64,000 bases of DNA from Dioscorea cayenensis subsp. rotundata (taxonomy: Eukaryota > Streptophyta > Magnoliopsida > Dioscoreales > Dioscoreaceae): the NCBI RefSeq assembly GCF_009730915.1, contig NC_052488.1:22314305-22378304 (forward strand). Direction: 5' to 3'. The notes beneath the pieces are model-generated. The model did no database searches. It was given only the letters and a program-made list of their open reading frames with translations, and was not told the origin of the DNA. Position numbers and translations under genes: made by a program. Below are positions 9,431 to 59,427 of this stretch, piece by piece (within the stretch, counting starts at the first letter, position 1; each line of letters begins with the position of its first letter).

Positions 9431-10619
9431 AGAATAATGAATATCAATTCTAAACAAAGTTTTGGAATTTCAGAAGCCTATTCCAATTTGAGAGAACAGT
9501 CTCTTTGTAGTAAACAAATATATATTGTGATTCTTGTTGCTTATGATTATTAGTTAACAATTATGGACTATGAGACTACTCTTGTCTTGACATGTGGTGT
9601 ATTTGTTATATATATATATATAAAATAAAAAGTTTAATTCATGATTCAGTTTACATCCAATGTATTTAGTGTTCTTATGGTCATACTGAAGAATGTTTTG
9701 AATTTTGCATTTGGTTACAACTAATTCTTATCTTGTTATTTGGATTTTGGAAACCATAACTTAAAATAAAATATAAAAAATCTAAAATTCTGTAGAAAAT
9801 CTTTGTTTGTTTCTTTTGAAATTTGAAGTATGAAATATAGGATGATTAGATAATTTAAAATTTGATTTGTTTTTGTATAAGGTTTATATTTAATTGAAAT
9901 TTATTTAACTTCAATTAGATATAATGATTTTATGCTATTTTATTCTTTATTTTTCATTAATTTTTTTTTCATCCTCTCTAAAGATAACGAATCACTTATA
10001 TTTATTAAATTCAACTTAAATTACGGCATTAAATAGAGCACACTCTATATTGATTGATGATGTCATATGTGTAATTAATTAACAGAGTCATTTAAAAGTT
10101 CTATGATCAATGGCGGTGTGCATATAGAAATTAAATGTTGGAATTTAATATTTACTAAAATTATCAACAATAAAAATTATGATAAATATATATTTAGGGA
10201 TACAAAACATGATATACTTGAGCAGAAAACTTCAAAAAAAAAAAAATAAATCTGATTTTATCACTAAAGATAAAAAATAATAAAAAATATATATTTTGAT
10301 ATTTATGATAAAATAAAATTTCCTTTTTCAAGTGACTCTTCTGTTTGATATGAATCAAAAGAGGTAAGTCGGTGCCCATCGCACCCACAGAGTCGTGTTG
10401 CACGAATCACGAGGCGAAAATGAACGATAAGGATTAATCCAAGTGCATTGAGATTCGGATTCGCCACGCATCATCTTCTCCTTTATAACCCCCCCCTGCG
10501 TCTTCGTTCTCTCTATCGGTCCCCAAAAAAGTTCTATTTGCGATCGTGGTCTTCTCTCGTGCTCTGTTTCTCTCGAATTCTCTCGAGTTCTCCGACGATC
10601 GCCGACGCTGGAGACCTCC
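9431..10619. other. Intergenic and UPL4 promoter/5' UTR
   Basis: The stretch to about 10350 is AT-rich with a short (TA)n at 9609-9620 and no coding exon. The last 250 bp become GC- and pyrimidine-rich and probably form the UPL4 promoter and leader. No clear TATA box was picked out. Confidence 0.5.
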
Positions 10620-13600
10620 ATGGACCGTGGCCGCAAGCGGGCGGAGGCTGCCGATCACCTCCCGGCGGATAAGCGGCCGTGCGGCTCCTCCGATTTCCAC
10701 CCGGGAACCTCCTCGTCTGAACCCCCGGCGGATTGTGATATGGAACAAGATCCATCGACGTCTGGATCGGATGAGGATGATGACCATGGTGGGTATGGTT
10801 CTGATGATGATCCAAACTATGCTTCTCGTAACGCGGAGAACCGGACGAGGTTGGAGGGGATCGTTCCGAGGCTTGGTGATGCCGATTTTGGTGCGGTGCT
10901 CGCGGTGCTGACGGAGCTTTGCGAAGTTCTTTCGTTTTGTATGGAGGACACTCTGTCTCGGCCTGCGATGGAAGGGTTGGTGGCGGCGCTCGTGAGGCTG
11001 GCCGGCACGGAGGCGTACCCTGATGTTATGTTGCTCTCTATCCGGGCTTTGACTTATCTGTGCGATATCATGCCGAGGGCCGTGGATGTCGTCGTGCGGC
11101 ACGAGGCTGTTCCCGTGCTTTGCGGAAGGTTGATGGTGATCGAGTATTTGGACGTGGCTGAGCAGGTATGGTGTTATGATTATGAAGTTTTATCATGTTG
11201 TTTTAATTTTGAGAGAAGTGGTTGTATGGATATTTTATTTGAATTATTTTGATATTGTAGTGCTTGCAAGTATTGGAGAAGATATCGAAGAGGCAGCCTG
11301 TGGCCTGCTTGCAAGCAGGGGTGGTCATGGCGGTGCTGAATTACGTTGATTTCTTCTCCACAACTATTAAAGTGAGGATTGTGTTTAGCGCTTAAGTTTT
11401 TATTGATGCAAAAAGTATGTGGAGCTTACTTATTTTTTGTTATTTTTTAATTCTTATATTTTGTGCTATAATTTGCATCAGAGGGTTGCTCTCACTACAG
11501 TTGCAAATGTGTGCAAGAAGCTTTCTGTTGAACGCTCTTCATCTGTCATGGATGCCGTTCCCATTTTGTGCAATTTCCTTCAATATGATGATGACCATAA
11601 GGTGTCTCACACATTTCTTCATTAGTCACAGATATGATTTGTTTGTCTATTTTCCTTTTGATTTTTTTAATAAATTTAGTATTTACTTATAAATATGCTT
11701 TCTGGATGGTAATAGCTCAATCTCTGCTTTTTTATGTTCTGTTTTGCTGTAACAGCTTATAGAGACTGCTGCTACATGTTTGATTAAAATAACAGAGTGC
11801 TTTAGTAAATCTCCAGCACTCTTGGATGAACTTTGCAAACGTGGAATTATTAACCAATGTTTAAAGTTGGTAGCCTTGGATGGTCGGATGACACTTGGCC
11901 AGTCTACTTATAATGTACACTCTATTTGGATTGAACGCTACTGTGCTATTTTCTTGTCCATTGTTGCTCTTTGCCAGATGATTACTAACTCTGTTTTTTG
12001 CTTACCATTAGGGGTTGATTGGGCTTCTCACCAAGCTTACTGCTAATTCAATGGTAGCATTCAAGACACTCTTCGAGTTGAATATAGGTGGTATTCTACG
12101 TGGAGTTCTTTTGACGATGTCAGACCTATCCCATAGCACTTCTTCTAACTTGTTTCTTGAAGATGGCCAACCTAATCAGGTTTAAAGTCTTTAAACTACA
12201 TTTTTGTTATAATTGTTCATGATCTCCTTTTGCAGGTTTTTGTTGGAAGTCTTGTATGAACTGAAAAATTCATACTTTTGTTTGTTAGAATATACAGCCT
12301 TGTAATTGATACAAATAACTACAAATTTATTCTGATAACTATTCTAATGTGATTGTAGAAGATAGAGCTCCAAAGCTAGAATACCTGAAAATAAAACTAG
12401 ATGTAAAAAGGAATATTTGTGTTTGGATGGATCCTGATCTGTTATAAAGAAATGCAGAAGAAAGTCATGCATTGAAGTCATGCAGATTTTGAAGTGTGAA
12501 ACATATTCTGCAATTAAGCTCCTCTTTTAATGTGCTGTTTTTGGCATCCTATAAATGATCTTTTACTTTTGATTTTTTTTCCTCTGCTTCAGTGTCTACA
12601 CTCTTAATCCTCTTACTCTTCATTATTTTAAAGTCACTGTAGTTATATCGATTGTATCATGGTTGATAGTCCTTTTGGTTGCTTTAGTTATATTTTGAAT
12701 TTCAAAATATAGTTATGTGATTGAAAGTCTTTACTCTGAAAAGATTATTAAAAAAATGCCTAATCCATATGCTGCCTGCAGGTATATGAAATTTTCAATT
12801 TCTTAAACCAGCTAATTCCTCCTGCTGCAAGAGAAAATGATGAAGTCCAGCTGGTGCTGACAAAAGGGAATTTTCTAACTGAGAAACCTGACTTTCTGTA
12901 TCAGTTCTCAAGAGACATCCTTCCTGTCTCTGTTCAGGTGTCTTATTCTAAACTGTTGCTAAAATGGCTTGCATTTCATTACCTTAACTAATATAAAAGT
13001 TCATCGCAGGTGGTTAATTCCGGTGCTAATTTATATGTTTGTTATGGCTGTGTTTCTGTCATAAACAACATTTTTTACTTTAGCACATCAGACATACTTC
13101 CAGATTTAATTGAAAACACAAATATCTCAAGGTGAGCAGGCTACACAATGAAATCGTTGAATCTATTTGAAATACAAGTATGACCTAGTAGGTTGAAAAT
13201 TTTGATCTCAATTTGATATTTGTTACTTTGTTTATTGCTGCAGCTTTTTGGCTGGTTTGCTTGCCCGAAAAGATCACCATGTTCTGTTTATGACTTTAAA
13301 GATCATTGAGACCTTAATGGAAAAGCTTCCAGGTGTTTTTTCCAGTTCTTTTGTTAAGGAGGGGGTTATTTATGCAATTGATGCTCTTTTAAATCCCAAA
13401 GATGGCTTGGTTCAAGATTCAAGTCATCCACAATCCTCTAATTGTCAAGTGACTGCAAGTGATGGCTCTGTGTGTTTGTGTCATGCATTCATGTCAAGGA
13501 AGGCGCCTTCATCGGAGGCGAAAACTTGTACTCTTGGAAAGGAAGCTGTATTTAGTTTAGCAAAGCACATAAAGTTTACCCACTTCATCTCTGATTCAGT

Positions 13601-40847: not shown

Positions 40848-42017
40848 TTTGTTCGACGGTTTTGTGTATGTGAAGCTAACTGCATTGGCAAAATATCGGA
40901 CACGCCCTCTTGGATCATTACTAATTGTTTTAACAACTCACGGTCATCGTCAACGTCATCGACTGATTCTATTGGATCATTTGTTCATTGTTGATCATGC
41001 AGCATGACAGCAATGGAATTAGCAGCATGTGCAAAGTAAAAAATTTCTTTCTTAGGTCACTGTTGTATTTCATGTTTGCTTGACTTTGCTCTTAGTATTC
41101 TTATCATTGTAATTGTATTCATCCCTATATGGTTATTACCATATTTTGCAGCTTAGTTTATGTTGTGTTATTGAGTTTTTATGTAACAGAATCAAGTCCT
41201 AAAATACTAGATGAAAGTTCTTAATTAGTACTTAAACTATATTTAAATATCTATTTTGGATATCAAATCAGAAAAGAAAAAATAATTTAATCACTAAGCT
41301 GATATAAAAATTAAAATAGTATCCTATTTCAAAGCATATGCTATTTAGCATTTTCATCAGTTTCATGGATAAAAGAAAAGAAAATCTATTTTACATGATC
41401 ATATTGAATGTTTTCAAATATATATATATATATATATAATCATTGTGATGACGATTATAAATATTTTCAAATTTTAATGAATATCTTTTACTTAGAAAAA
41501 GGTTGACGGTTCTAAATGCACAACATGATGAAAACATCAAATATTAACAACGGTTCTAAATGCACAACATGATGAAAACATCAAACATTAACAACGAAGA
41601 ATAAAAAAACACAAAAAAGAAGAAAATAACATTTAGAAATTTGGTTTATTTGCCCAAATTACTAATTCGTGATTTTTTTTATTATTATTTTAATAATATG
41701 GACAAGCCCTGTTAAAGATGTGCATTCTCACATTACAAGAGTTAAACCAGTCTCTCCAGTAAAGACATAATTAAATTCTTACACAGAGAAATCAATATTA
41801 ATTGACTAAGAGTTTGTTGATTAATTCGTGCAATTAATCTTCATAGCTTTAATTTTGGTGTCACGTAAAAAAAAGCTAGTTTCTTAAACTTAAAAAAAAA
41901 ATCCAAATTATTTATTAAAAAAAATTACTAAAACTTAACCACAGTCCTCTTTTTAGTAATTTTAGAAGTACCAATTTTATTTACATGTCAACACATTAAA
42001 AACAAGCCATTTAGGGA
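40848..42017. other. Intergenic left of the MULE
   Basis: 3' UTR of the preceding gene, then AT-rich DNA with (TA)n near 41419-41438 and a 44-bp tandem duplication at 41507-41594. No gene was seen. Confidence 0.6.
41507..41594 (+). repeat. 44-bp perfect-register tandem duplication
   Basis: 41507-41550 and 41551-41594 both begin CGGTTCTAAATGCACAACAT and differ at a single position (AATATTAAC versus AACATTAAC). Recent local duplication. Confidence 0.9.
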
Positions 42018-43329
42018 TAAATAAAAGGGAAAATTACTGTTCACCCATCGTAATTTTTAAAACTTCCCAAAAACCCCCTCCTACTTTTGCACACCCCGGA
42101 CAGCCCTTCCGTTAGTGTTTAACTTCCCTTTTACCCCATACCGTTCACTTCAAATGGTTCCATGTTGTGAAATCCCATTTTTGGCCCTGAAAATGGTGGG
42201 AAAGGAAAGCGCCAAATCACATCATGTTCAACCTTTTCGAAGGGCTTTTCTGCTTGGTTTAACGCTTTAAATATTTTTACTAATATGTTTAATAATTGTC
42301 ATATCCGTGTAATACTTCCCATCTCCGCTTTAACGTTATCTTTACATGTATAACTATTCATATTAACGTGTAAATTCTCAAAGTCTCTGCAGAAAAGCGG
42401 TGATCTTTTTCGCTTTGATCCGAATTCGTCGGGCGGTGGCACGTGGCGGTGGCAGAGGTTATGGTATCCCGTGCATAAGAATTAATGACGGCATTAAAAT
42501 TTATGCACGGTAACATAATTTTTCCCGAACACTCGCTCGTTCTCATCGATCAATGTCGGCCATCGTGTGTTTAACTTTTTTTCTGGATATGAAGAGTCAC
42601 CGCTGCATGGAATTCACACCATAAATAACCAGAAAGAACCCTCCCCATGGACAACCACTCCTCGTCGTCCTCATCATCCTCCTCCTCATTCTCGTCCTCC
42701 TCTTCCCATGGACAACCACTCTATCTGAAAGAATGTTTCGTGAACCTTTTTCCTTATCTTGAGAATCATTTAGCCGCAATCACGCAACAAGTTAAACTAT
42801 CTTTTCCTGCCCAAGTCGAAATGCTCTCATAATCGCTCGAATCGCGAGAGGATTCTTCGATCGATGGATGACGGGCAAGCAATTAGCGAGCATTTTCGAC
42901 TTGGGTAAGAAAAGAAATTTTTCACGTATTTCGTGATTGCGGAGGATTCTCTAAAGGAGGGAGATCAGGAAACATCCTTTAAGACGGGGTTGATATTTAT
43001 CACTGAGACTTTCTCGTTACCATTTAAGAACATTACGTCGATGTACAACTATTACGCTCGTGTTTAACTATCGGGATCTTCGTTTAAGTCCGACCATGAC
43101 ACATTGATTAATAGTCGTTTTCATGAATGTGTGTTGTTTAACCTTTTTTTAATGTTGTACGTTGTGCAGGTTCAAGTTGATGCGCATGTTATGCAACCGC
43201 TGTGAGCATTCGAATGTACAGACACTTGTTTCGTTATACGAGGGTCGAGTCGTGAGTGTCCAAAGTCCGAGCGGACGTTGTAAATGTTGTAAATCTTTTA
43301 TAAATAAAACGAAACAAGCTTATTTGACT

Positions 43330-44460
43330 GTGAACTTCTGAAATTTAAACATAGACCTAGTAAAAACAAACAATGTGGGAAACAAAAGAACGTCATTGTA
43401 AACAATAGAAAATACGTAAATATGTTTAAACAGCGACAACGGTGTTTAAGAAAAAGTTACTCTTTAAACAATGACAACGGTGTAAACAATAGAAAAAGTT
43501 AAACAATACTCTAGTTACTCTTTAAACAATGACAACGGTGTTTAAGAAAATACGTAAAGATGTTTAAACAGTGACCCAGGAGGTACCCATCTTCAACGCG
43601 ATGTCAGTGAAAGCATTCAATTTAAACAATAACATATTATTTACATGATATAGACTTTAGTTAAACAGTTAACGATTATTTTAAACACTATATGTATCTG
43701 TTTAAACACTATATGTAGCTTGCAGGCCGCTGCTGTTTCTCGATGGTACCCACCTTCTTGGAAAATATCGGGGTACACTACTGGGTGCCACAGGGAAAGA
43801 TGGAAACAATGGTTTTTTCCACGTCGCCTTCGGTATAGTCGACAACGAGACCGATGCCAATTGGACTTGGTTCATATCTAAGTTAGGCGATGCCTTATAC
43901 GAGGATGGAGATTATCATGAGATAATTACCTTCGTGTCGGACAGGTCCAAGGGCCTTGTGAGCGCAATTGCGAGAGTCTTCCCTTCTTCGCCACATGCAT
44001 ACTGTCTTCGACATTTGAGGCCACTTTTATGAAAGCCAATGTCGGACTTTGGGAAGGCATTGAGGGAGGAGTCTCTGGTCTATATGCTTCCGCATTGCGT
44101 GGGCATCCACGGCTAAAGATTTCGATGATACCGTGAATGAATGCGCAGCCACATCACCCAAGCTCATCATCGGTTGATTAATAAATCGGATATGGCACAT
44201 TGGTCGAATTATCTGTTCGGGAGGTGATCGTTGGGGTGAGATGTATTCAAACGTCATGGAGTCGCTCAATGCTTGGATCAAGGAAGCTCGCCATTTACGG
44301 TGACTGAAAATGGTCGACTCCATAAGGTCTCGCGAATGTTGGTTTACACTTAACATTTACTGTTACCCTTTAAACATTCTCAATCTTTGTTTAATTACAC
44401 TTGTCTGACTTTAAATATTAATCCTTTAATTTAAATATTTACAATAATGTTTAAACATGT
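43330..44460. repeat. Recurrent TTTAAAC heptamer in MULE non-coding DNA
   Basis: Ten exact TTTAAAC occurrences are visible here, often in longer phrases such as CTCTTTAAACAATGACAACG (about 43461 and 43519) and TGTTTAAACA. At least nine more lie at 45.1-45.5, 46.6 and 47.9-48.1 kb. They sit between coding segments and avoid the exons. Function unknown. Confidence 0.7.
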
Positions 44461-45097
44461 TTACGAATTATTTAACCATCAATCGTCTTTTGTTTAACCT
44501 TATTTGTCGGGGTTCAAGTTGATGCGCATGTTATGTAACCCGGCGTGAGCAGCTGAACAAATGGGAGACCTACTTATGCCCAGACATACATTCCAAGGTA
44601 GCGATCATTGTTGAGGACAGCCGAAATCTTCGTGTTGGTCGTTGTGTCGATGATCGTTACGAAGTGATCGACAAGTCGCGACGAACTCCGTGGATCTCGC
44701 CATCGAACTTTGTTCGTGTCGAAGGTGGCAAGTTTATGGTATCCCTTGCAAACACGCTTGCGAGCAATAATGCAGCGAGCACACCAGCGTACATCGATTT
44801 ATTAGCGGGTACTTCACCGTCGACAATTACAAACTTGCGTACAAAGGAAGCTATATTCCCCATACCCGAGCGATGAAAAGGCCTTGAGACGGAAATCGTG
44901 AGCTTCGTTTGCGACTCACTGCGAGAAGGCACTGGGCGGCCTGAGCGAAAAGAGGATCGAGTCGCAGCGTTTGATGTCCGTGAGTTACATTGCGGCAGCT
45001 GCCATGGATCCGGTCACAGTCGACGATCTTCAATGAAAAGCGTGGCCCGACTAGGTATTGTTAATAGTCGAAGCGATGATGGAAACATTGTGTATTG
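43726..45097 (+). pseudogene. MULE transposase remnant (DDE domain, SWIM finger, zinc knuckle)
   Basis: The clearest exon is 43726-44032: LLFLDGTHLLGKYRGTLLGA, FHVAFGIVDNETDANWTW, TFVSDRSKGLVSAI and PHAYCLRHL, the core of the Mutator DDE transposase with its first Asp in FLDGTH and a later Asp in SDRSKG. It is interrupted by a stop at 44030-44032. Downstream pieces in shifting frames carry DMAHWSNYLFG and SLNAWIKEARHL (about 44190-44300), then KWETYLCPDIHSKV (about 44560-44600), a SWIM-type zinc finger CSCRRWQVYGIPCKHAC (about 44702-44755) and a CX2CX3GH knuckle (about 44991-45020). The C-terminal part therefore needs frame changes at several points: a decayed gene. Introns with TTTAAAC motifs separate the pieces. 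Confidence 0.85.
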
Positions 45098-45720
45098 ATG
45101 GAGTTGTTTCCATATTTAAACTCTTACTCTTTACAACGAATTGAATGTATTTAAGCAGAGACATTGTTATTTTTAAAGCGGATACTATCGTAATTTGAAA
45201 TATTTCAGCCGATGTTTTAAACGATATATGGTATATTTAAACAATGAAACGGAAATGTACACAACTACAACGTAAATTAAACAATGAAATGAAACCGAAT
45301 GAAATTTAACTCGCCTTTATAATTGAAAAACAAACAAACTTTACATTGAGATATACAAGTTATTGATGGGCAACTTCCCATATTTATTTAAACAATGAAT
45401 GCATTTAGTTAAACAGAGCAGATGTTATTTTTAAAGCGGAGTACACCGTATTTTTGAAATATTTAAATCGATGTTTAAACGATATATAGTATATTTAAAC
45501 AATGAAAGTGAAATGTACACAATTAGAACGTAAATTAAACAATGAAATGAAACTGAATGGAATTTAACCTGCTTTACAATTCAAAACAAACAAAATTTAC
45601 ATTAACATATACAAGTCATGCTCTTCGAACACGAAAACAATGAATTGAATTTGTCCAGATTTACATTCGAAAATAAAATTGACATTCAGATATACAGGAC
45701 ATGTTCTTGAAAAACAAAAT

Positions 45721-46278
45721 TTAACCCGCTTGATGCGACCCTCCTTTGTCATGGACGCCTACGTCCTCCCTCCTTAAGTATGCGGGTAACATACCGTAAT
45801 CCCGAGATAAGGAACGTCCCGTCATGCGGTAGTCGAACTTCTCACCCCAAAGTAATTGCTCGATAAAACGCATGACGTAGACGGCGCAATCGACGCTTCC
45901 TTGTTTTTGGCGTGGGGTTTCTATGTCGTGCACGAGTGGGTACTTTGCCGTCGCCGACTCGCCGAACTCCATATCGACACAATTGTCGAATAGATTCCGC
46001 TGTCGAGATATGCAAGTCGAGATTAGAATAGCGATTTAAATACCAAACAGATATTAATAGGACATAATTAAAGAACTTACCATGTCCAACGCGTCCTTAT
46101 CGTACCCCGGACATGAAGAATAATGCCTGTATTCTTGTTTATCATTGTCCAGGACGACGACATGGAAGTGGCCATTCATGATTATCGGGAGGATGACAAT
46201 TTGAACTTCATGCGGTATCGACGACGATCCCCGATCATAGCCATAATTGTGTCGTAGTGCGTCGTCTCGCTTGGACAT
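45721..46278 (-). pseudogene. Ulp1-like (C48) cysteine protease domain of the MULE
   Basis: Minus strand, two exons 46278-46081 and 45999-45721, joined by a consensus GTAAG...CAG intron in phase 0; the upstream exons are unclear. Homologous to SUMO-protease-like domains captured by some plant MULEs. It contains NGHFHVVVLDND (His position of the triad) and RQKQGSVDCAVYVMRF (Gln of the oxyanion hole and catalytic Cys), ending GSHQAG. The usual Asp in a YDS-like motif reads HYSS here, so the triad may be incomplete. The frame is open through both exons, better preserved than the transposase. It could be a live exon or a recent fossil; I call it a pseudogene because no full-length upstream frame can be supported. 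Confidence 0.7.
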
Positions 46279-46864
46279 AAACAGCAGTAAGCGGTCCGGT
46301 GATAGAGGCGCTTCTTGTAAGGATATGGCTCTTTGCTCAGCGACTTTTTGTATTATGCTACTGAAAGCGTCCCATCATATCATCGATGACCATCTCCTTC
46401 CCCTCAAGCAAAGATGTATAATTTGTCGCGTGTGGTCGTGACAGTCATTCTTCCACACGACGAGTCTTTGAGGTTAAACGATAATGGATATAATAAGACC
46501 ATATTATAAATATTTAAATGATATTATCAATTGTTACATGATATTATATATAATTAAATGTTAAGTAGACAAATTAAATGATAACATAAAAGGTATTAAA
46601 CACTATTAGGTAATTGTTAAACACTATAATAAAAACCTTTAAACAATATCATAAAAAAACTTTACACTTACTCGTCCATAGAGCGAGTTGAGGAAGATCC
46701 TCATCAACTCCTCGTCAGATTTATTAAAGACGACTCGAGGCCAACCCATTTCTTCTTCTTGAATAAAAAGCTTTCGAGCCCAGTCTGGTCTAATTTTTTT
46801 GATTGGCCTTGATCATCTCTCGTTGCTCGGTCGGGGTCTTCGACAGATCTTCCTTCGATCGCGG

Positions 46865-47165
46865 GGACGATGGCGACGACGATCAACTCGCATGACATCC
46901 TTACATGGTTGTTCTTGTTGTGGGATTGTGTCCGGCTCGATCTGAGGGGACGATGGCGGCGATCAACCGCAGACACATCCTTACATGGTTCTTGTTGTGG
47001 TGGTATTGTGTCCCCGCTTGGGTCGCGATCATCGTCGGCCACGTCCACGGCCACGCAGAACGGATTCGATGATCTTCTCAACCGTGGCCATGACAACGAC
47101 GATCATTGGGAGACACACCCTTAACTTGTTCTTGATCTTCGAGGGATTGTGTCCATCTTTGATGC
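46865..47165 (-). repeat. Degenerate tandem repeat in the GC-rich part of the MULE
   Basis: Three related units of roughly 75-130 bp share, in order, GATGGCG(A/G)CGA-like, GATCAAC, ACACATCCTTACATGGTT, CTTGTTGTGG and ATTGTGTCC (units near 46868-46930, 46952-47013 and 47094-47155). Read on the minus strand they could encode Pro/Gln/Asp-rich repeats such as DTIPPQQEPCKDVSAVD, possibly the variable region of the Ulp1 protein. Confidence 0.6.
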
Positions 47166-48959
47166 CATGATCTCGCGACCCGGTTCCACCGGGTCGAGGA
47201 TTTCATCGAGAAGAGAGTCAACGGCCTTCTCAACGGCAAGCAACGGCCACATCATCTACGGTCCTTCTCAACAACGACATCGTACCGCCGATGGTGTTGC
47301 TATTGTTTCATCGTCGACCGGCGGTGGAGACGAGGCGTATTGTTCTCCTCTTTTTCGCAAGTCTCTTGAATGTGGTCGCCTTGAAATGACCTTCCCGATG
47401 ATGTCCCTCGTCGTCAAATTCCGACGCCTCGTTCGTCCCGGGTGCTTGAGTTCTTTTCGAGGGATGGCGCAGCCCGGTTGTGAACGTCCTTCCAGCGCCT
47501 CGACACGAGCGACAAACCGAGAAACTTCGGTCATCAATATCTGCGTACTGCACGATAAGAGTTCGCGGTGACATCTTCGCCTAATGTCACGGTGGGGCTA
47601 CCACGGTCGGAGGGGTCGCCATGGTCGGGGCCGCACTCGGGGACTCGTCGTTGTCGTGGTAGGGGGTTGTTGCAATCGCGGGTAGGGGGAGGGCTTCTCG
47701 GTCGAGGAATGCGTCGCGTGGTGGGCTGGAAGTAGGAGAACGGCGTCAAGCGCACACGATAGAGGCCGCCTCTCATCCCCGCCTCGAGCAAGTGGTTCCG
47801 GGAGCAATGGCATCCATCCGTCGGTTGGCCCCAACAAATATTTCTTCTTGACGATTCACGGAACCATTTCGAGAAACTAACGTATGTAAACCAAACAATT
47901 TTCAGTGAAATCATTCATTTTAAACTATAAAAACTATATTTAAAGCAGAGTGTTTATATATTTAAACGTTATAGAATATAATTAAAGCGGACAACAAAAT
48001 ATTTAAACCAGGTATGAATAAGAGTTAAAGCGGTAAATACTAAAGTTAAACGCTAAATAAAATGTTTAAACGTTAAAGACTTATGTTAAACATTGTCCAT
48101 GATTTATTACCTCTTTTCCATCGAGCGATGACAAGCTCGTTTCTACCGTCAGCTTGCTTCGGTAAGTACTTTCACCGTAGCACGAGCATCCTTGGGATCT
48201 TGCTAAAAGCGGACTTTCTTCCCCGTTCCCGGTCAGCTCGTAAAACCGGGACGTTAAGCCGACAGAGCAACCCTTAATGTACCTCGTGTTGGTCTTCTTC
48301 CCGACATCTATCTTGCACTCGGGCGTTGCATGGAATATCCTCCATAAGCCACTTGTGCGTCGCCTGCGCCCATGCGTATCGCCCCATGGGTCGGTAGATC
48401 ATCGGCGTAATCAACGATCCGAGTTCGAACCGAGAATGATGTATTTGGGAAGAGGATCTGTCCCCATGAGGTACACCATCGGGAGTTTGACAAAAATTAT
48501 CTTCTTCTCCCCTCCGTCGAACAAGTTGCAGCGAGTGCTCTTGATGGAGTCTCCGTGTCTCTCGTAGGTCTTTGATAGATACCGCCCTTGAGCGCCGACT
48601 GGTTTTCTTCTTACGAAAGACCACCTGCGTCGCCATCGCAGCGCGAGACCAAGCCACGAGGGCCACATCTTGAGGTCCCGAAACTCAGCGAGGCTTTCCC
48701 GATCCACGAATTTATTGGTGCGACCATCGTACTTTGCAAAAGAGAATCAAGAAGGGCTCTCTCTTGGTATATAGCTTCCGACTCGATGAGCAGCGCAAAT
48801 GGTGTCCGTCGAATAATCTCCCGGTGTCGAGGGTCATGTTATTTTTCAATTCAGCTAAAGTCTCCACTCACGGGTGTCAAATAGCATCGGCCATTAACTA
48901 GGTTGACCGCCATAATCATAAGCTGCGATAATAACAACACATTCGACATGCGAGTATTG

Positions 48960-49160
48960 ACAAAAAGTTTAAGCGGAAATATAAGGTTTTAAAGCGGTAA
49001 ACTCTCGGTTATTAAGCAGAGATATAAAATGTTAAAGCAGAGACCCATTTTTGTTAAGCAGAGGCGAGAATACTTTAAAGCAGGGGACAACAAATGTTAA
49101 GCTGTAACATCTCATTTCTTAAAGCGTCAACCTCATTTGTAAAAGCTGCAGACCATATCA
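48960..49160. repeat. Spaced TTAA(A)GC motif series near the MULE right end
   Basis: A core TTAAGCGG/TTAAAGCGG/TTAAGCAGAG/TTAAAGCAGAG recurs about ten times at roughly 15-30-bp intervals between 48968 and 49150, all in the same orientation; related TTAAAGCGG copies occur near 47983 and 48029. No coding frame explains it. It resembles the subterminal motif arrays that transposases bind in other superfamilies. Confidence 0.65.
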
Positions 49161-49901
49161 AAGCGAAACGGGAAATGTACATTATAAATATTACACAAAT
49201 CATAACAATCGAAAAAACTAATTCGATAGTGTATACATACGAAAATGCAAAACAAAACAAAACCCCAGCCGAGAAATCCCCCTGCAGACTTCAATATCTT
49301 CCAACAAAAACAGGAGCACAAAACAAAACCGAAAAATCTTTCTTTGTAACAGAACAGTTAACATAAAACCATACTCAATACCTTAGATTTCAAAGCCCGA
49401 TGAAATGCCAACTAGTTGCGAGGGGACTTCTCCTTCGAGATACCGGTGGAAAGGGAAAAGGCGATGAAATGCCGATTACGGAGGCTTCACCCGTAGAGAC
49501 AACTCGGAGGCGACTGAAATGGAAAAAGTCGAAGGCGTGAGTTGAGAAAAAGCAATTAAACGGCTCCAATAAATTGCGTCTCGGGGTTACCCTACGGAAA
49601 ACCGCCCACTTCCTCTCAAATCGCCGAGATGGGCTGCAGCCCACGACTCCCCATGCAAGGGCATTTTCAGTCCAAAAAAATTTGAAACTCACTCCGTTCA
49701 CATCCGATTCTAGGGGGTTTGGGGGTTTGAAAAACATAGAGTTTAAAAGGAGGGGGATTTTGGGGATTGCAAAACTAACGGGGTGTTTTTGGCAATTTTA
49801 CAAACTTAAAAGGTTTTTTTGGCAATTTCTACTAAATAAAAAGTGCACAAACACATTGATAACTTTGTTTTCATGAATTACTACAACATGTATTAGAGAT
49901 A

Positions 49902-50396
49902 TTAAAAGAAAGCATCCAAGTTGATGAAGCCAGGCCACTCTTGCATTTGGTCAACCCATTCTATTTCTCCACCACCATCTTTCACACTATTCTCAATACC
50001 ATGACCAAGAACTTCACTATGATAATTAACTCTATCATTGCCATAAACTTGATTTTGAAGATGATTTTTCATCTCCTCTTCCTCTACTTCGTCTTTCCTT
50101 ACAAATCGGCCACCCACTCGTAGTTGTTGATTAGCTTGTATACTTCTACACGGATACAATAGATATGAAAATATTTAATTTGTTGATAAAATAATTAACA
50201 CTTTTAATTTAATTTCTCCAAATAATTAAAAGATGCCAATATATATGATCATAATATATATATATACCTTTATTTTCTTTTTGAAGTTTCTCAAGGAGCG
50301 TTTGTTCCGGTACCGTTCGACGGCCTTCTTTCGCTCCACGGCATTGTACCGCTTTGCTCCGGTTACTTTTCCGGCCTTCAACTTGATTGTGTTCAT
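49902..50396 (-). CDS. Small CCT-domain (CMF-type) protein, possibly broken at its splice acceptor
   Basis: The CCT domain is found in CONSTANS, TOC1 and the single-domain CMF proteins that regulate flowering, clock and carbon traits through NF-Y complexes. Minus strand: exon 1 50396-50268 (ATG 50396), exon 2 50156-49902, both phase 0, 127 residues. The domain spans the junction: ERYRNKRSLRNFKKKIK from exon 1 and YPCRSIQANQQLRVGGRFVR from exon 2, matching CCT positions throughout. There is no B-box or response-regulator domain, and the tail is acidic. The donor is GT (AAG|GTATAT), but the base pair before the exon 2 start is TG (50158-50157), not AG. The nearest AG (50147-50146 region, TGTAG) gives an immediate stop and loses half the domain. 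So this is either a rare GT-TG intron or a gene inactivated by acceptor loss. Its stop lies only 60 bp from the MULE target site. Confidence 0.75.
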
Positions 50397-50408
50397 GTAA
50401 GAAGACAA

Positions 50409-50753
50409 TCAAAATATTTTGTGTTTGTGTTAATTTGTGTGTGTGTGATGGTGAAGGGCCATATATAGAGCTGGTTGATATATATATATAAGGGTAGTTT
50501 TAATTAAATTTATACATGGCTTGTATGATGGGAGATGAGTTCCAAGTGTTAATGACATATATACCAAGGCTCATTCAAGCATATGCATGTTGGTTATTGC
50601 ATTGTTAGAAGGTTAGGTTGAATTGCTTTTTTGTTGGGAGGGAATTAACGACACTAAGTGACTAACCAATGCAAGCTTGTGTTCTAAATTCTAAGCTAGT
50701 CTTATCTATTGCAGCATGTCAGCTTGACATACTTTGCTTTATATATATATATA
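50409..50753. other. CMF gene 5' region
   Basis: AT-rich with (TG)n near 50435-50448 and (TA)n near 50477-50490 and 50741-50753, the latter being the target of the next MITE. Presumed promoter of the minus-strand CCT gene; a TATATA at about 50460-50465 is the likeliest TATA box. No gene was seen. Confidence 0.45.
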
Positions 50754-51010
50754 GAATTTACATCCCCTATGGACGTCCATAGATAAAAAATCTATGGACG
50801 TCTAATTATCAGCCGTTGGATCATGATCCAGGTCGGCGATCAGATAAAAGCGATCTCACTGTTTATTATCTCTGTTCGAACGAGTAATTCTCGTTCATAT
50901 AATGTAATGTCTGACGTTTCATCATTGTTAGCCGTTGGATCGAGATCCAGCGGTGATATCGACATTCATAGATTTCTTTATCATGGACGTCCATGAGGAT
51001 TGAGTCCTCA
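50754..51010. mobile_element. MITE inserted in (TA)n, full-length copy
   Basis: About 257 bp between TA tracts. Terminal inverted repeats include CTATGGACGTCCATAG near the left end and ATGGACGTCCAT near the right end; the terminal region reads inward CATCCCCTATGGACG on one side and CAATCCTCATGGACG on the other. The interior has AGCCGTTGGATC motifs. No coding capacity. Insertion within TA microsatellites recalls Micron-type MITEs of rice. Confidence 0.75.
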
Positions 51011-51031
51011 TATATATATATATATATATAT

Positions 51032-51200
51032 TGATGAGCGATTACCACTTTGTTTATTATCTCATTCGAACAGTAATTACTGTTCATATTACTGTAGTAT
51101 CTACTGTTCATCATTGTTAGCCGTTGGATCGAGATCCAACGGCTGATAATGGACATTCATAGATTTCTTATCTATGGACGTCCATAGAGGATTGGTCCTC
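51032..51200. mobile_element. Second, left-truncated copy of the same MITE
   Basis: This matches the right two-thirds of the preceding copy (GTTTATTATCTC, TTCGAACnAGTAATT, CATCATTGTTAGCCGTTGGATCG and the end GTCCTCATATATA) but lacks its left terminus and starts directly in the (TA)n that ends copy 1 (51010-51031). It retains the perfect palindrome AGCCGTTGGATC/GATCCAACGGCT. Confidence 0.75.
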
Positions 51201-51233
51201 ATATATATATATTCATGTGTGTGTGGTTATGTT

Positions 51234-51420
51234 CACTACAAGAAACTACTGAATTAGAAACAGAAATTTAGCAACGGAATTATTCTGTTACTAATTCGCA
51301 ACGAATCAACAACGAATTACTTATCCGTTTCAATTTTAAAAACAAACTTTACATATGTTTCAAAGTTTGAAACATAAGTTTTGTCCGTTGCTAATTTGTT
51401 ATTAATTTAGAAACGGATTA
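51234..51420 (+). mobile_element. Left end of a CACTA (En/Spm) transposon, other end not found
   Basis: CACTACAAGAAA at 51234-51245 is the canonical plant CACTA terminus. It is followed by subterminal motifs around GCAACGGAATT, GTTACTAATTCGCAACGAAT and CCGTTGCTAATTTG in both orientations, as usual for the family. No complementary TTTCTTGTAGTG end is present in the next kilobases, so it is a truncated or rearranged remnant. Confidence 0.7.
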
Positions 51421-52392
51421 CAAAGGTTACTGTACATATGCGCAGTGGTAACTGTGTTTTAACCAACCTCATGCAACTCTCAGGCCGAATTTGACCGTAA
51501 GCATGTTCTCGCTTGGGTAAATATATTGTTGAATTATTGTTTGAGCTACTTAAATAATAAAATACTCACACCATTTGCAAAACAACCATTTTAAGATATT
51601 ATATTTTTATCGGAGAAAAAAATACCAAAAAAAAATTCTTATATTAATAATCTGTATTTCCGAGGAATTAGAATTACATGGAAAACAACACGCCTTCAAC
51701 TACTAATGAACGTCTTAGTTTCACATGAAAAATATTTAACATATATTTAAACTTTTTATGTAAAAAATAACGCCAAATCTCTGATCATTAATTGACTTAT
51801 CACCCACAGAAGACAAAATGTTGTCCATTCTTCTTCAAACAACAACAATAACAACAGCAACAACGTTGCCATTTAATTTGGTTTTATAGCAGATAGATTT
51901 AATATATCAAAACAAATAACTTTGACATAATTAACAATTAAAATAATCAATTAGAAGGATAATTAACAACGATGACTTTAGATTCTTTCAAGCCTTATTC
52001 CTGGCGGAGGCAGCACCTCCAATAAAATATATATATATATATATATATATTTAAAAATAAATAAATGTCTCCAATAAACAAGGCTCGCGGAACAATGCCA
52101 ACAAAACCCTTGTTATCTGAAGAGTTAAACAGACATTTGGTTCATTTATTCTCTCAGTATCCAATGGAATTAAGAATCACATAAAAATAAAATTTAATCT
52201 AAATAACAATGTACATTCAGTGCATATTACTTAATAAAACCTTCTTGCGCATCTATCCATCTTCTATGCACCACTGTAACTTGTTTATGTCTGGTCACAC
52301 AAAGTTGGTAAACCTGGGCATTTTACAATGCTCAAAGCTTTGCATACCCCGAACATATATTGATGGCAAAAACAATATATATCCATCTGTGC
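51421..52392. other. Intergenic, AT-rich
   Basis: No gene was seen. It contains (TA)n at about 52028-52050 and A-rich stretches. The last bases hold the 5' target duplication of the LINE. Confidence 0.55.
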
Positions 52393-55439: not shown

Positions 55440-56001
55440 CTTTCAAAACTTTTTTTTTTATTTTTTATTTTTATCTTCCTTTTTTTTTCTTTTTAAGTGG
55501 ATTCTCAATGTTATCATGAAGTTAATTTCTTCTTGTTCATCAATTGAGTGGAATACTTTTTTTTATTTCCTTTTAATGAAAGTCACTATCTGTTAATGAT
55601 ATATTATGAGAAATTAGTGGGACACGTTTTGCTCTTCCAATGGTGGTTGTTTGAAACTATTATACTTTTAATAGCAACAAAAAATATTACATTTTTTATT
55701 TATGGGTTTTACTCAATTATATCAATTTTTATTTAAGATGTTGGATCTACTGGTTTTACAACAATCATAGTATGTAAATTAGTCAAAACAAAATATTGGG
55801 AATTGTGTATAAAGAACAAAACTTCTTATTGATCATTATATCATTTAAAATGTATAAATTACTTACTATTCATTTCTATGTGATAATAAAATATTATTTA
55901 TGATTTTTTAGAGCCACCGCTGACCTACCTCTGTTGCTAAAAAAAAAAATTATGCCATAAAACTATTTTAAAATAATTTTAATAAATACATTAAAAATAG
56001 A
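55440..56001. other. ALS3-like 3' region
   Basis: Presumed 3' UTR followed by AT-rich intergenic DNA. No gene or repeat structure was picked out up to the hAT-like MITE target site. Confidence 0.5.
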
Positions 56002-56009
56002 CTTAATAC

Positions 56010-56906
56010 CAATGTTTTTAAAACCGGACCGGATAGTGAACCGGTCTCATATTTGGGTCACGGGTCAGTCGGTTCGACCGGATGACCCATTTTGATCGGA
56101 CCGGATGACGTCATAAATAAATAATTATCTTAAATATTATATATATATATAATATATATACATATAATAACAAACTTTATTATATTTTTAATCATAATTA
56201 TCTTAAATATTTATTTTAATATCATTATGATTTTATCAAAATGGTTGAAGATTCAAATAATTAATCTAGATAAAGCAACAAATACAATTCCCTAAACCTT
56301 TTATTTCTTAATCTATTAATCATAAATGGATGATGATAACTACATAAATTAAACAACTAATTAAATTACTAATTATGTGAGGATGAGACAAGGCATAAAC
56401 AAAAAAAATTCAAAACAAAACTAGAACTAAGTATGATTAATTTAATTCTCATATTTGATCATCATTACCATTAAAATAAAAGTATAAAATAAAATAAATC
56501 CTAAATGATCTATACCTCTTAAACAATTTACAAGTTTCTTTTTTTCTCGTACCTCTAAACTCCAAAGTTCCAAAAAAATCCAAAATAATATTTCCGACAA
56601 ATCAAGATTCAAAGAGTATCGTGAAATCGAAAGAAAAAAAGAGCCAATTCATGCCCCTAAGTCTTTTATTAAAAACAAAAAAACAAAAACAAAACAAAAA
56701 AACAAAAAAACAAAAAAACAAAACAAAATAAAAATTGAAAACCGGGTTCCATCCGGTTTTGGTCCGACCGACCGGTTCACCGAGTTTAGCGGGTTTGACC
56801 GGTTCAAAATTCGGTCAACATTAATTCTAAAACCGGACCGGGCTATGGGCCGGTTCCCGGTTTTTCCGGTCCGACCGGCCGGTCCGGTCCGGTTTTCAAA
56901 ACATGG
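56010..56906. mobile_element. Non-autonomous hAT-like element, 897 bp, 8-bp target duplication
   Basis: Flanked by perfect CTTAATAC duplications (56002-56009 and 56907-56914). Terminal inverted repeats: CAATGTTTTTAAAACCGGAC on the left and, inward from the right, CCATGTTTTGAAAACCGGAC. Both ends are packed with CCGG/GGTCCG motifs while the middle is AT-rich with (TA)n and an A/C-rich stretch. No transposase was seen. The 8-bp duplication places it with hAT-type transposition. Confidence 0.82.
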
Positions 56907-56935
56907 CTTAATACAAATGTAAACAAGTCACATTT

Positions 56936-57118
56936 CCTTTGGGTCAATTGGTACCGGGTTCTTTGTGTAGAGTGTTCATTTCAAAAAAGACCCGAAATCG
57001 AATCTCATGTCCGCACAAAGTGAGGGCACGTGGGTCAGTATTGAGCTCTGCTCCCCACACATGCACGTCCCTGACTTACTCTTAAATAAGGGGCGCTTAT
57101 CATCTATTTGTCCAAAAA
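56936..57118 (+). mobile_element. tRNA-derived SINE
   Basis: About 183 bp flanked by TCACATTT duplications (56928-56935 and 57119-57126). Near its start are an RNA polymerase III box A-like TGGGTCAATTGG (56940-56951) and a box B-like AATCGAATC (56996-57004). It ends in an A-rich CCAAAAA. The insertion site is 22 bp from the hAT-like element. Confidence 0.6.
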
Positions 57119-57126
57119 TCACATTT

Positions 57127-57673
57127 TCAAATAAAAAATAAACACATACAACACTTATATGTTTTTATCCCTTATAGGGTGAGAACTTTTTTTTAATTAA
57201 AAAAATAAATACTTTAAATAAAGGACTCATGCCAACTATTCCCAGTCAAAAAAATTAATTAATATATATATATATTTAACAAAGTCGATAAACAATAAAA
57301 TAAAATATAAATAGATATGGGGTGCACCAGTTATAATAACTTAACTGACTTTCTATAAATAACTCATTTCTAAAGTGAAGTATTCCTCACACATAACTCT
57401 TCCTCTCAATCATAAGCACGAATAATTACTAGTGGATTAACACACAATTCCAATAAAACATAATATTCAATAAGATATCAACATACCATGCTTATTTAAA
57501 AAAAAAAAACGTAAAAATTTAAAATTCCAAATGAATGGTTGAGATCTGAAGAATCCGATCGGACGGTGAAAAATAACATAGCCGTGAATGCGGGCCCCAC
57601 TAATTCGCTGACCTATCGTTCGGTGACTGGTATTGGGTTCCCTTCTCTCCCGCGTACACCCATTCCGCCACCA
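57127..57673. other. Intergenic and promoter of the next gene
   Basis: AT-rich to about 57530, then a GC-richer leader with GGGCCCCAC (57593-57601; TCP class I type) and CGATCGGACGG (57558-57568) upstream of ATG 57674. No other coding exon was seen. Confidence 0.5.
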
Positions 57674-59427
57674 ATGGCCGCCTGTCCCGCCACCACCCGC
57701 GGCTCATCTCCGGTTACCATGACAACCCTCCCTCGGTTTCAGATCTCTCCCCATTGCTTCTACCTTCTTCTCATATCTTGCATCTTCCTTGGTTCCATTC
57801 CAGGTACCAATTCCTTTTTTTCTTGTTTTTTTTGGTGAGGCATTGTTTGTTTTTATTAAAAAGTCAGCTTTTTTGTTAATGTATTTTTTTGGATCATTAA
57901 ATGGCATAGAATCAAGAGTACAGGTAATGTCATTTGATTGGACGAATCAATTTTGTTGAACATTTTGTTTTGGTGGTTGTATTATTAGGTTGGTATGCTT
58001 AAAAGGTGTTTGAATTTACAATATTGTATCAGTTTGCTGAAGCCTTGTGTTTTTCTTTTTTTTTTCTTTTATATGCTTGTTTTTTTTGCCGTAAAACCAC
58101 AGTTTTGGTGAGCATGCATGTAATTTTGGGGTTGTAATTGGATGCTATGCTATGCTTGAGAAGTGTTTGATTTGGAGTTTATGCTTAGAATTTACAAGTT
58201 TGTGGTAGCTTGGTGAGGCTTTGTTTGTTGTTTTCTTTTTTCAATTAAAAAAATGAGGGTTTTTGGATCAGTTTTGCAGCATATGCATTCATTGGTAGTG
58301 TACAGATAATTTGGTTCACTTTTATATGAGCAAAATATATATGGAAAATTATTGCTATTGCTAACTTGTGCTTGTATGAAGTTTTTCTTAAATTTTGAAC
58401 GTATTCTTTCATCAAGATTTGTTATACTTGGACACATTGAGATTTTTTTTAATATCTTAATTTTGCTAGTTTACTTTTGTATGAATACAGAAATTGTTGC
58501 TAGCTTCTGTTTGAACAGAGGTGTTCATAAATTTTGTAGGTGTTTTTTCATCAAGGATTGTTGTGATTGAGATTTTCAAACATCCTACTTATGTTAAGAG
58601 GAACCAGAAAATATATATAGTTTGTTGCAATCCTGAGCTTAAATTTGAGCTGTTCATAACTTTTGTAGGTACTCTTTCAACAAAAACTGTTAGACTTAGA
58701 TCAATTGAGATTTTCGACACTCACGAGTGGCTGGCTTCTAGCGCGACGGTTTATTTCCATTGTAACGGAGAAAACAAAACCATTCTGCCAGACGTTAAGG
58801 AGAATCACTTCTTGTACACTTTCAAAGGCGAAGAGTCTTGGCAGGTTTGAAGTTACTACCTCATTCACCATATATTATTCCTTGTATTCCATGTCTATCA
58901 GTTTTCACATGATTTACATTAATTTCAGCCACTAACAGAGTTAGACAACAAGAAATGCAAGCGATGTGGTCTGTATGAAATGGACAGTATCAAATCCGAT
59001 GATATATTCGATGAATGGGAACTCTGCCCTGATGAATTCATCAATGGAGAATATGTGCACATTAAGGACATGGAATTCATTGCCACATTCATCTGCAATG
59101 AGTGTAAACCTGTAGTTAGTATGTTTTTCTACACATAACCCATCCTTGAATGATTATATCGAGCGAAGAACAAAACTATATTTCACATTTTATCTTTTTA
59201 TTTTGCTTGTAGATTCAACTCAAGCTGTTGCAAATAGGAGAGATGAAGAGAAGAAAATGAATGTGACAATGGTGGTCATAATTAGTGCCTTAGTCTCCAT
59301 TGCTGCAACTGCTATAACTGTCACTGCTTATAAATATTGGCAGAAGAGAAAGAGGGAACAAGATCAAGCACGGTTTTTAAAGCTTTTCGACGAAGGTGAT
59401 GACATTGAGGATGAGCTCAGTCTATGA
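57674..59427 (+). CDS. Type I membrane protein of unknown function (plant-specific)
   Basis: I do not know a function. Four exons: 57674-57803, 58669-58844, 58929-59118, 59213-59427, all GT-AG and in phase, giving 236 residues. Residues about 28-43 form a hydrophobic signal peptide (CFYLLLISCIFLGSIPG). The lumenal/extracellular part contains VRLRSIEIFDTHEW and a CKRCGLYE...CPDEF...CNECKP cysteine arrangement that probably forms disulfides or a small zinc site. A single transmembrane helix (MVVIISALVSIAATAITVTA) is followed by a basic stop-transfer KRKRE and an acidic tail ending DDIEDELSL. An in-frame upstream ATG-like start at 57539 exists, but ATG 57674 has the better context and gives the signal peptide close to the N-terminus. 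The layout suggests a secretory-pathway or plasma-membrane protein. Confidence 0.82.

Follow-up and report, generated by a model that had tools for sequence, protein, structure and literature searches.

Element-encoded, sequence-specific anti-silencing is known, in the portion of the literature available to us, from the VANDAL elements of Arabidopsis. According to the accessible text of the source, VANC21 removes methylation from VANDAL21 and binds short motifs in its non-coding DNA, in introns as well as in intergenic and terminal parts (PMC5735166), and a review, in its available part, describes Ulp1-bearing VANC genes as acting like VANC21 (PMC13317346). Here we analyze a Mutator-like element (MULE) of 7,806 bp, at positions 42027-49832 of a 64,000-bp stretch of genomic DNA, the whole of which we call the window. 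The element resembles VANDAL21/VANC21, as described in the accessible parts of two papers (PMC5735166, PMC10398659), in being Mutator-like, in having an extra gene beside the transposase and in carrying tandem short motifs in introns, upstream regions and intergenic DNA. Because of this anatomy, VANC-like action is our leading reading, which we hold tentatively, at slightly less than even confidence. On this reading, the segment is a transposase-deleted copy of a large Mutator-like family with an antisense Ulp1-type gene, and its motif arrays would be phased binding sites for a VANC-like anti-silencing protein encoded by the element, with one core across families.

Phased motif arrays and where they occur

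The non-coding gaps between the exons of the element are arrays of TTTAAAC/TTAAAGC units set at a step of 20-22 bp, with a site of about 12 bp (TTAAACRNWRAM or TTAAAGCRGAGA). TTAAAC occurs 33 times on the plus strand of the element, a density of 4.23 per kb, against 0.43 per kb in the rest of the window. Across ten copies of the family, the distances between motifs peak at 20-21, 41-42, 62-63, 83-85, 104-106 and 126 bp, and the best period is 20.8 bp, approximately two helical turns. Since the step corresponds to two turns, successive sites face the same side of the helix. The initial annotation had called the non-coding content of the segment distinctive; the arrays bear this out, and they are odder than its author could have seen.

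We scored each array with a chain test against 500 dinucleotide shuffles. Five arrays score 11-21 on their better strand, a value that no shuffle reached: I1 (43320-43730; 15 units listed on the plus strand, many of them GTTTAAAC palindromes, with the result holding on either strand), M1 (44340-44510, between transposase exons; eight units listed on the minus strand, strand scores 17 and 16), IG (45060-45720, plus strand; 18 units between the convergent genes), I2 (46460-46690, plus strand; eight units) and I3 (47900-48110, plus strand; nine units in unbroken 20-22-bp steps). Both I2 and I3 fall within what are likely introns of the protease gene. Coding segments score 0-1, and 187 control tiles from the window outside the element score 6 at most. 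The remaining arrays are M2 (43040-43160, minus strand; four units, score reached by 2 of 500 shuffles), M3 (42240-42345, minus strand; four units, 6 of 500) and T (48960-49180, plus strand; nine units upstream of the first methionine of the protease, 17 of 500). Array T performs poorly in a test built on TTTAAAC chains because its units are the GC variant, of the TTAAGC/TTAAAGCRGAGA type.

This layout recurs in nine mapped copies, the window included. In these copies, the called strand of an array is mostly antisense to the gene that contains it, minus in the transposase half and plus in the protease half; owing to the almost palindromic core, the calls for I1 and M1 are uncertain. As an independent check, Tandem Repeats Finder detects periods of 20 and 21 bp in copy L023, the 21-bp period at a place that matches array T. 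Array IG contains a 258-bp block that has been duplicated in tandem together with its own motif units (45142-45650), an expansion of the array.

The arrays are abundant in the genome, which we searched as 584,211,761 bases in 2,249 contigs, with the window on contig C18. Three units in register at 20-22 bp match at least 9,999 times on the forward strand and 9,692 times on the reverse strand, at least 19,691 in all, compared with 33 and 33 for the reversed pattern and 10 and 6 (16 in all) for three units spaced 25-27 bp apart. All seven array clusters that we sampled, on contig C1 only, lie in relatives of the element, recognized by their ends or coding sequence. Arrays are also present in the diverged relatives L040 (70-74% identical), L042 (75% in one part, 65% in another) and L043 (75%), and a comparable period is found elsewhere: 20.9 bp in L040 and 20.5 bp in L037, while L039 peaks at 10.4 bp, a single turn, with 21.4 bp lower down.

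In the diverged L040, core and phase have been retained more faithfully than the spacers. Over arrays I2, I3 and T, the cores are 85.5% identical, the spacers 65.1% and the remaining alignment 74.0%; considering A/T bases only, 90 of 100 are kept in cores and 255 of 356 in spacers (Fisher p = 1e-4). A set of 160 distinct units from eight loci has TTAAACRNWRAM in common; its first six bases served as the anchor of the comparison, agreement beyond them is weaker, and the spacer is for the most part close to background.

Two small relatives bear on what the arrays are for. L037 holds a 1,731-bp non-autonomous element (224-1954 of that locus) with ends of the same type (80-81%) and a perfect 9-bp duplication, TTATTTTAA, in which two dense arrays flank about 600 bp of other sequence and neither the transposase nor the protease gene is present. 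The 1,688-bp element of L039 also has two arrays and sits in a TTA microsatellite, where its duplication is indistinguishable from the repeat. Because arrays are retained where both genes are gone, these elements point to a cis role for them. One frame in L037 is weakly similar to a GeBP DNA-binding domain, under the cut-off, and is perhaps a captured fragment of a host gene. The L039 microsatellite contains two different group members, inserted side by side.

CpG content and the role of the arrays

The element is not depleted in CpG. Its observed-to-expected CpG ratio is 1.30, compared with 0.45 in window positions 1-42017, and nine further copies have ratios of 1.11-1.34 against 0.39-0.70 in their own flanks (1.13 in one flank). 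All 14 other segments of this genome that we presume to be transposon-derived (ten with PMD, four with C48) lie at 0.46-0.83. Two diverged relatives remain high, with 1.32 in L040 and 1.25 in L043, both measured over the entire locus and thus perhaps with some flanking sequence. Outside the element, 19 of the 28 2-kb bins of the window have ratios below 0.6, and bins 10001-12000, 50001-52000 and 56001-58000 exceed 1. From sequence composition, this pattern fits a lineage that avoids germ-line CG methylation, though not uniformly.

Under VANC-like action, a protein made by the element would bind the array sites as double-stranded DNA. The most likely binder is the product of the Ulp1 gene, a guess that draws on its position and on precedent. 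Once bound, the protein would coat the array cooperatively, and this coat would protect the element along its full length from CG methylation, so that it stays expressed and mobile. Non-autonomous relatives could be helped in trans because they retain both ends and arrays. The protease domain, in turn, might act on silencing proteins there and remove SUMO or a related modification from them.

Several observations weigh against this proposal. M2, M3 and T do poorly in the chain test, with a score of 4 each, and the test finds no arrays in about 210 bp at the left end, about 650 bp at the right end or positions 42345-43040. When whole core 5-mers are compared with L040, 9 of 26 are kept versus 43 of 237 AT-rich controls, a difference that is not significant (p = 0.066). 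CpG ratios are lower in the small relatives L037 (0.96) and L039 (0.86), as well as in L041 (0.89) and L042 (0.90), the latter two measured over whole loci in which some flank is possible, and part of the CpG signal could reflect recency. The N-terminal part of the protease gene yields no Pfam DUF1985 or PMD match in its read-through pieces, a search that frame breaks weaken, and the window element is not among the matches listed in a genome-wide PMD search (the best 117 of 1,148 candidates). Membership in the VANC group appears weaker, given that DUF1985 was not found, that terminal inverted repeats (TIRs) are present and that one core occurs in several families. VANC targets differ among related families, whereas the core here is common to families.

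The first alternative concerns CpG alone and is compatible with the other readings: the high ratios would result from recent amplification only, with the arrays unlinked to methylation. Perfect target duplications in 10 of 12 copies (see below) suit young copies, and the ratios of 0.86-0.96 in L037, L039, L041 and L042 also speak for this reading. Because the diverged L040 and L043 are still high, CpG has persisted for as long as it took to reach 25-30% divergence. We consider recency by itself somewhat unlikely.

With regard to the arrays themselves, the main alternative is that they are binding sites for the transposase, an extended version of the subterminal region of CACTA elements, and that they serve synapsis or excision instead of anti-silencing. 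Phased sites would suit such a role, and so would the retention of arrays alongside the ends in non-autonomous relatives. However, the arrays run throughout the interior, even between the genes, and are missing from the very ends, and undepleted CpG would be left unexplained. We regard transposase binding as unlikely. Less likely still is that the ligand of the arrays is a DNA-binding protein of the host, or that they exclude nucleosomes, recruited by the element for promoter activity. One core across families that are only 65-75% identical is what a fixed host factor would favor, and the sites are AT-rich and phased, but all seven sampled clusters, on one contig, belong to this element group, and none of the 187 control tiles of the window comes above a chain score of 6.

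A passive origin, in which replication slippage in introns left functionless tandem repeats, seems to us improbable. Plain tandem duplications do exist, both in the 258-bp block within 45142-45650 and in the near-identical units of L037, and the 5-mer comparison gives no significant conservation. On the other hand, older arrays keep the core and the 20-22-bp step while most of their spacer positions are near background, and slippage would not be expected to produce one step that recurs from array to array and in relatives that have diverged, or 16 matches at 25-27 bp against at least 19,691 at 20-22 bp. Finally, a role of the motifs in RNA, as splicing signals or branch points, would suit the location of most arrays in likely introns and their consistent orientation, mostly antisense to the surrounding gene, but it is very improbable given the array between genes at 45060-45720, the arrays kept in gene-less elements (on the element plus strand in L037 and the minus strand in L039) and a helical phase that an RNA signal would not be expected to have.

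Ends, copies and genes of the element

The initial annotation had described a complete Ulp1-carrying MULE, delimited by a perfect 9-bp target duplication and ending in divergent inverted repeats. Its boundaries hold. The duplication, TAAATAAAA, is exact at 42018-42026 and 49833-49841. The left TIR (42027-42196, plus strand) starts with GGGAAAATTACTG, the right TIR (49662-49832, minus strand) terminates in CAATTTCTAC, and the reverse complement of the element starts with GTAGAAATTGCCA. In a local alignment of the first 200 bp with the reverse-complemented last 200 bp, the best match extends from 25 bases in to approximately base 170 and scores 36, compared with a maximum of 19.5 among 500 base shuffles.

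The same ends recur in other copies. Of 2,319 candidates for the first 300 bp, the best 40 (window included) show 93-100% identity, and the antisense-gene exon has matches in the best 40 of 1,869 candidates. From these exon matches we took 20 copies, each with 10 kb of sequence, namely the 19 that ranked next to the window and one of lower rank, so that all are selected for the antisense-gene exon. We placed an end where similarity was at least 0.83 and the flanks were readable, allowing a slip of up to 3 bases. Both ends could be placed in 12 elements, the window and 11 of the 20 copies, and 10 of these 12 have a perfect 9-bp duplication (without slip in nine, with a slip of 2 bases in L020). 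The duplications of the other two match at 8 of 9 positions in L027 and at 6 of 9 in L018, where the right end is probably misplaced. The stretch with copy L025 has a run of N near its start.

An empty site is provided by L023, in which the recipient of the insertion is a 465-bp tandem repeat of 5.5 units (162-2691 of that locus). The joined flanks are continuous through five other units, one of them partial, which are 85-91% identical to them and contain the target-like sequence singly, with variation among units of one or two bases or one extra base. From the placed ends, the 9-bp duplications and this empty site, we conclude that these are real transposon ends.

The claim that the element is complete fails. 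At 43708-43718, match coordinates reveal an internal deletion junction where five copies (L019, L025, L027, L032 and L035) have a further 1.45-1.59 kb. L036 retains about 0.4 kb of this region, and L034 and L023 are without it and without further sequence. In L036 and L027, frames in the extra segment encode the region upstream of the MULE domain plus a PB1-like stretch under the cut-off, so that the segment appears to hold the N-terminal half of the transposase. Because five copies have what is absent here, we take the window copy to be transposase-defective.

Differences among the copies require caution. Over 117,797 aligned bases we counted 7,348 substitutions and 4,384 insertion or deletion (indel) events, 3,498 of them of a single base; across L017-L036, the ratio of indel events to substitutions is 0.6, and private transitions are about as numerous as private transversions, CpG sites included. 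The same protein is interrupted at differing places from copy to copy. These differences are likely residual long-read assembly error in repeats. We had considered the frameshifts as a sign of old decay and dropped this idea, given the predominance of single-base indels and the near equality of transitions and transversions. Because the differences read as assembly noise, neither the age nor the intactness of a copy can be derived from them.

The domain search of the translated interior agrees with the Mutator transposase and the opposite-strand Ulp1-like protease of the initial annotation. A transposase exon at 43706-44340 (plus strand), with its upstream part deleted, carries the MULE (DDE) domain: PF10551 matches 43706-44032 with 74.9 bits against a cut-off of 27.6 (E = 7.4e-21). 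In L036, a 325-residue frame extends further upstream of this domain than the window copy does. The C-terminal exon probably lies at 44510-45060 (plus strand), on the basis of an open frame at 44523-44876 that matches no Pfam family above cut-off. On the minus strand, open frames at 46081-46374 and 45721-45999 form exons 1 and 2 of the Ulp1/C48 protease, with, by eye, the His-Asp and Gln-Cys catalytic parts, respectively. Scanned singly, they reach 13.9 bits for PF02902, under the cut-off of 20.7; joined at the GT..AG intron 46000-46080, they pass with 22.6 bits (E = 1.1e-4).

Further upstream in the protease gene, a low-complexity linker exon probably occupies 46690-47900 (minus strand), judging from a 393-residue open frame in the matching stretch of L025, in which no Pfam family exceeds the cut-off. 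The N-terminal exon (48110-48913, minus strand) has a domain that we leave unnamed and was pieced together from a three-frame reading and from pieces in other copies. By eye it is PMD/DUF1985-like, a label that we rejected when Pfam did not confirm it. The window element is not among the 47 matches listed in a search for the C48 family (the best 150 of 365 candidates), and exons could not be clearly told from codon-position bias when the copies were compared. The initial annotation regarded the antisense gene as carried along. Because the same gene region occupies the same place in relatives that are 65-75% identical (L040, L042 and L043), the Ulp1 gene, on this sequence evidence, is better taken as belonging to the element group than as a recent capture.

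Near the right end, 60 bp from the duplication, a minus-strand frame (49902-50174) resembles the C-terminal exon of a CCT-motif gene, with a PF06203 match of 20.1 bits (E = 6.8e-4), under the cut-off of 28.4. Because of this frame, the insertion may lie in the 3' untranslated region of a CCT-motif gene or just downstream. Within the array-free part of the element, 42640-42725 and 42774-42942 have repeated CCCATGGACAACCACTC around a TCC-rich stretch and hold nested inverted repeats of 28 and 23 bp. No Rfam family was found in 42000-49900.

Comparison with known element systems

The arrays are a simple tag for finding members of this group, non-autonomous ones included, and they could explain the abundance of one Mutator group in this genome. 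A bolder proposal, which we consider possible but doubtful, is that a Mutator group of monocots has an anti-silencing system not described before. An Ulp1-bearing protein encoded by the element would form a one-sided filament on dozens of phased 12-bp sites in introns and intergenic DNA and would keep several families and their non-autonomous relatives unmethylated for long periods, hence the very high copy number; a single core would serve several families, whereas the motifs known from Arabidopsis are private. In the titles and abstracts of the literature that we searched, with subscription papers outside this scope, we found no description of a phased TTAAAC array.

CACTA/Spm elements have many short subterminal TNPA sites for an element-encoded protein that also counteracts methylation. 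Those sites are subterminal, whereas the arrays described here are interior and absent from the ends. The Kaonashi (KIU) elements are more similar in gene content. In the accessible parts of two sources (PMC13317346, PMC2528002), they are described as MULEs with a C48/Ulp1 gene in Arabidopsis, grapevine, melon and rice, and in grapevine, too, this gene can be opposite to the transposase. According to the same texts, Arabidopsis KIU is a non-TIR element with three genes (PMC13317346, PMC2528002), whereas our element has TIRs and two recognized genes; a third could hide behind frame noise or the deletion. Plant MULE groups 45-50 with PMD genes, in the available part of their description, share the 9-bp duplications, the TIRs and an extra gene that is often antisense (PMC6446971), but here PMD is unconfirmed and the recognized domain of the extra gene is C48.

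We return to VANDAL21, as far as the accessible text describes it. The motif there is YAGTATTAY and here it is TTAAAC(RNWRAM), and the strict 20-22-bp phase of our arrays has no counterpart in the available descriptions of VANDAL21. Our element also differs in its recognizable TIRs, in the lack of a Pfam DUF1985 match and in a core that is the same in several families. VANDAL21 belongs to Arabidopsis, whereas the host here is apparently a monocot. The title of a 2022 study by Sasaki reportedly speaks of eudicots. In comparison with VANDAL, the 12-bp site and its 20.8-bp period offer a simple, testable target outside that group and hint at the geometry of the bound protein.

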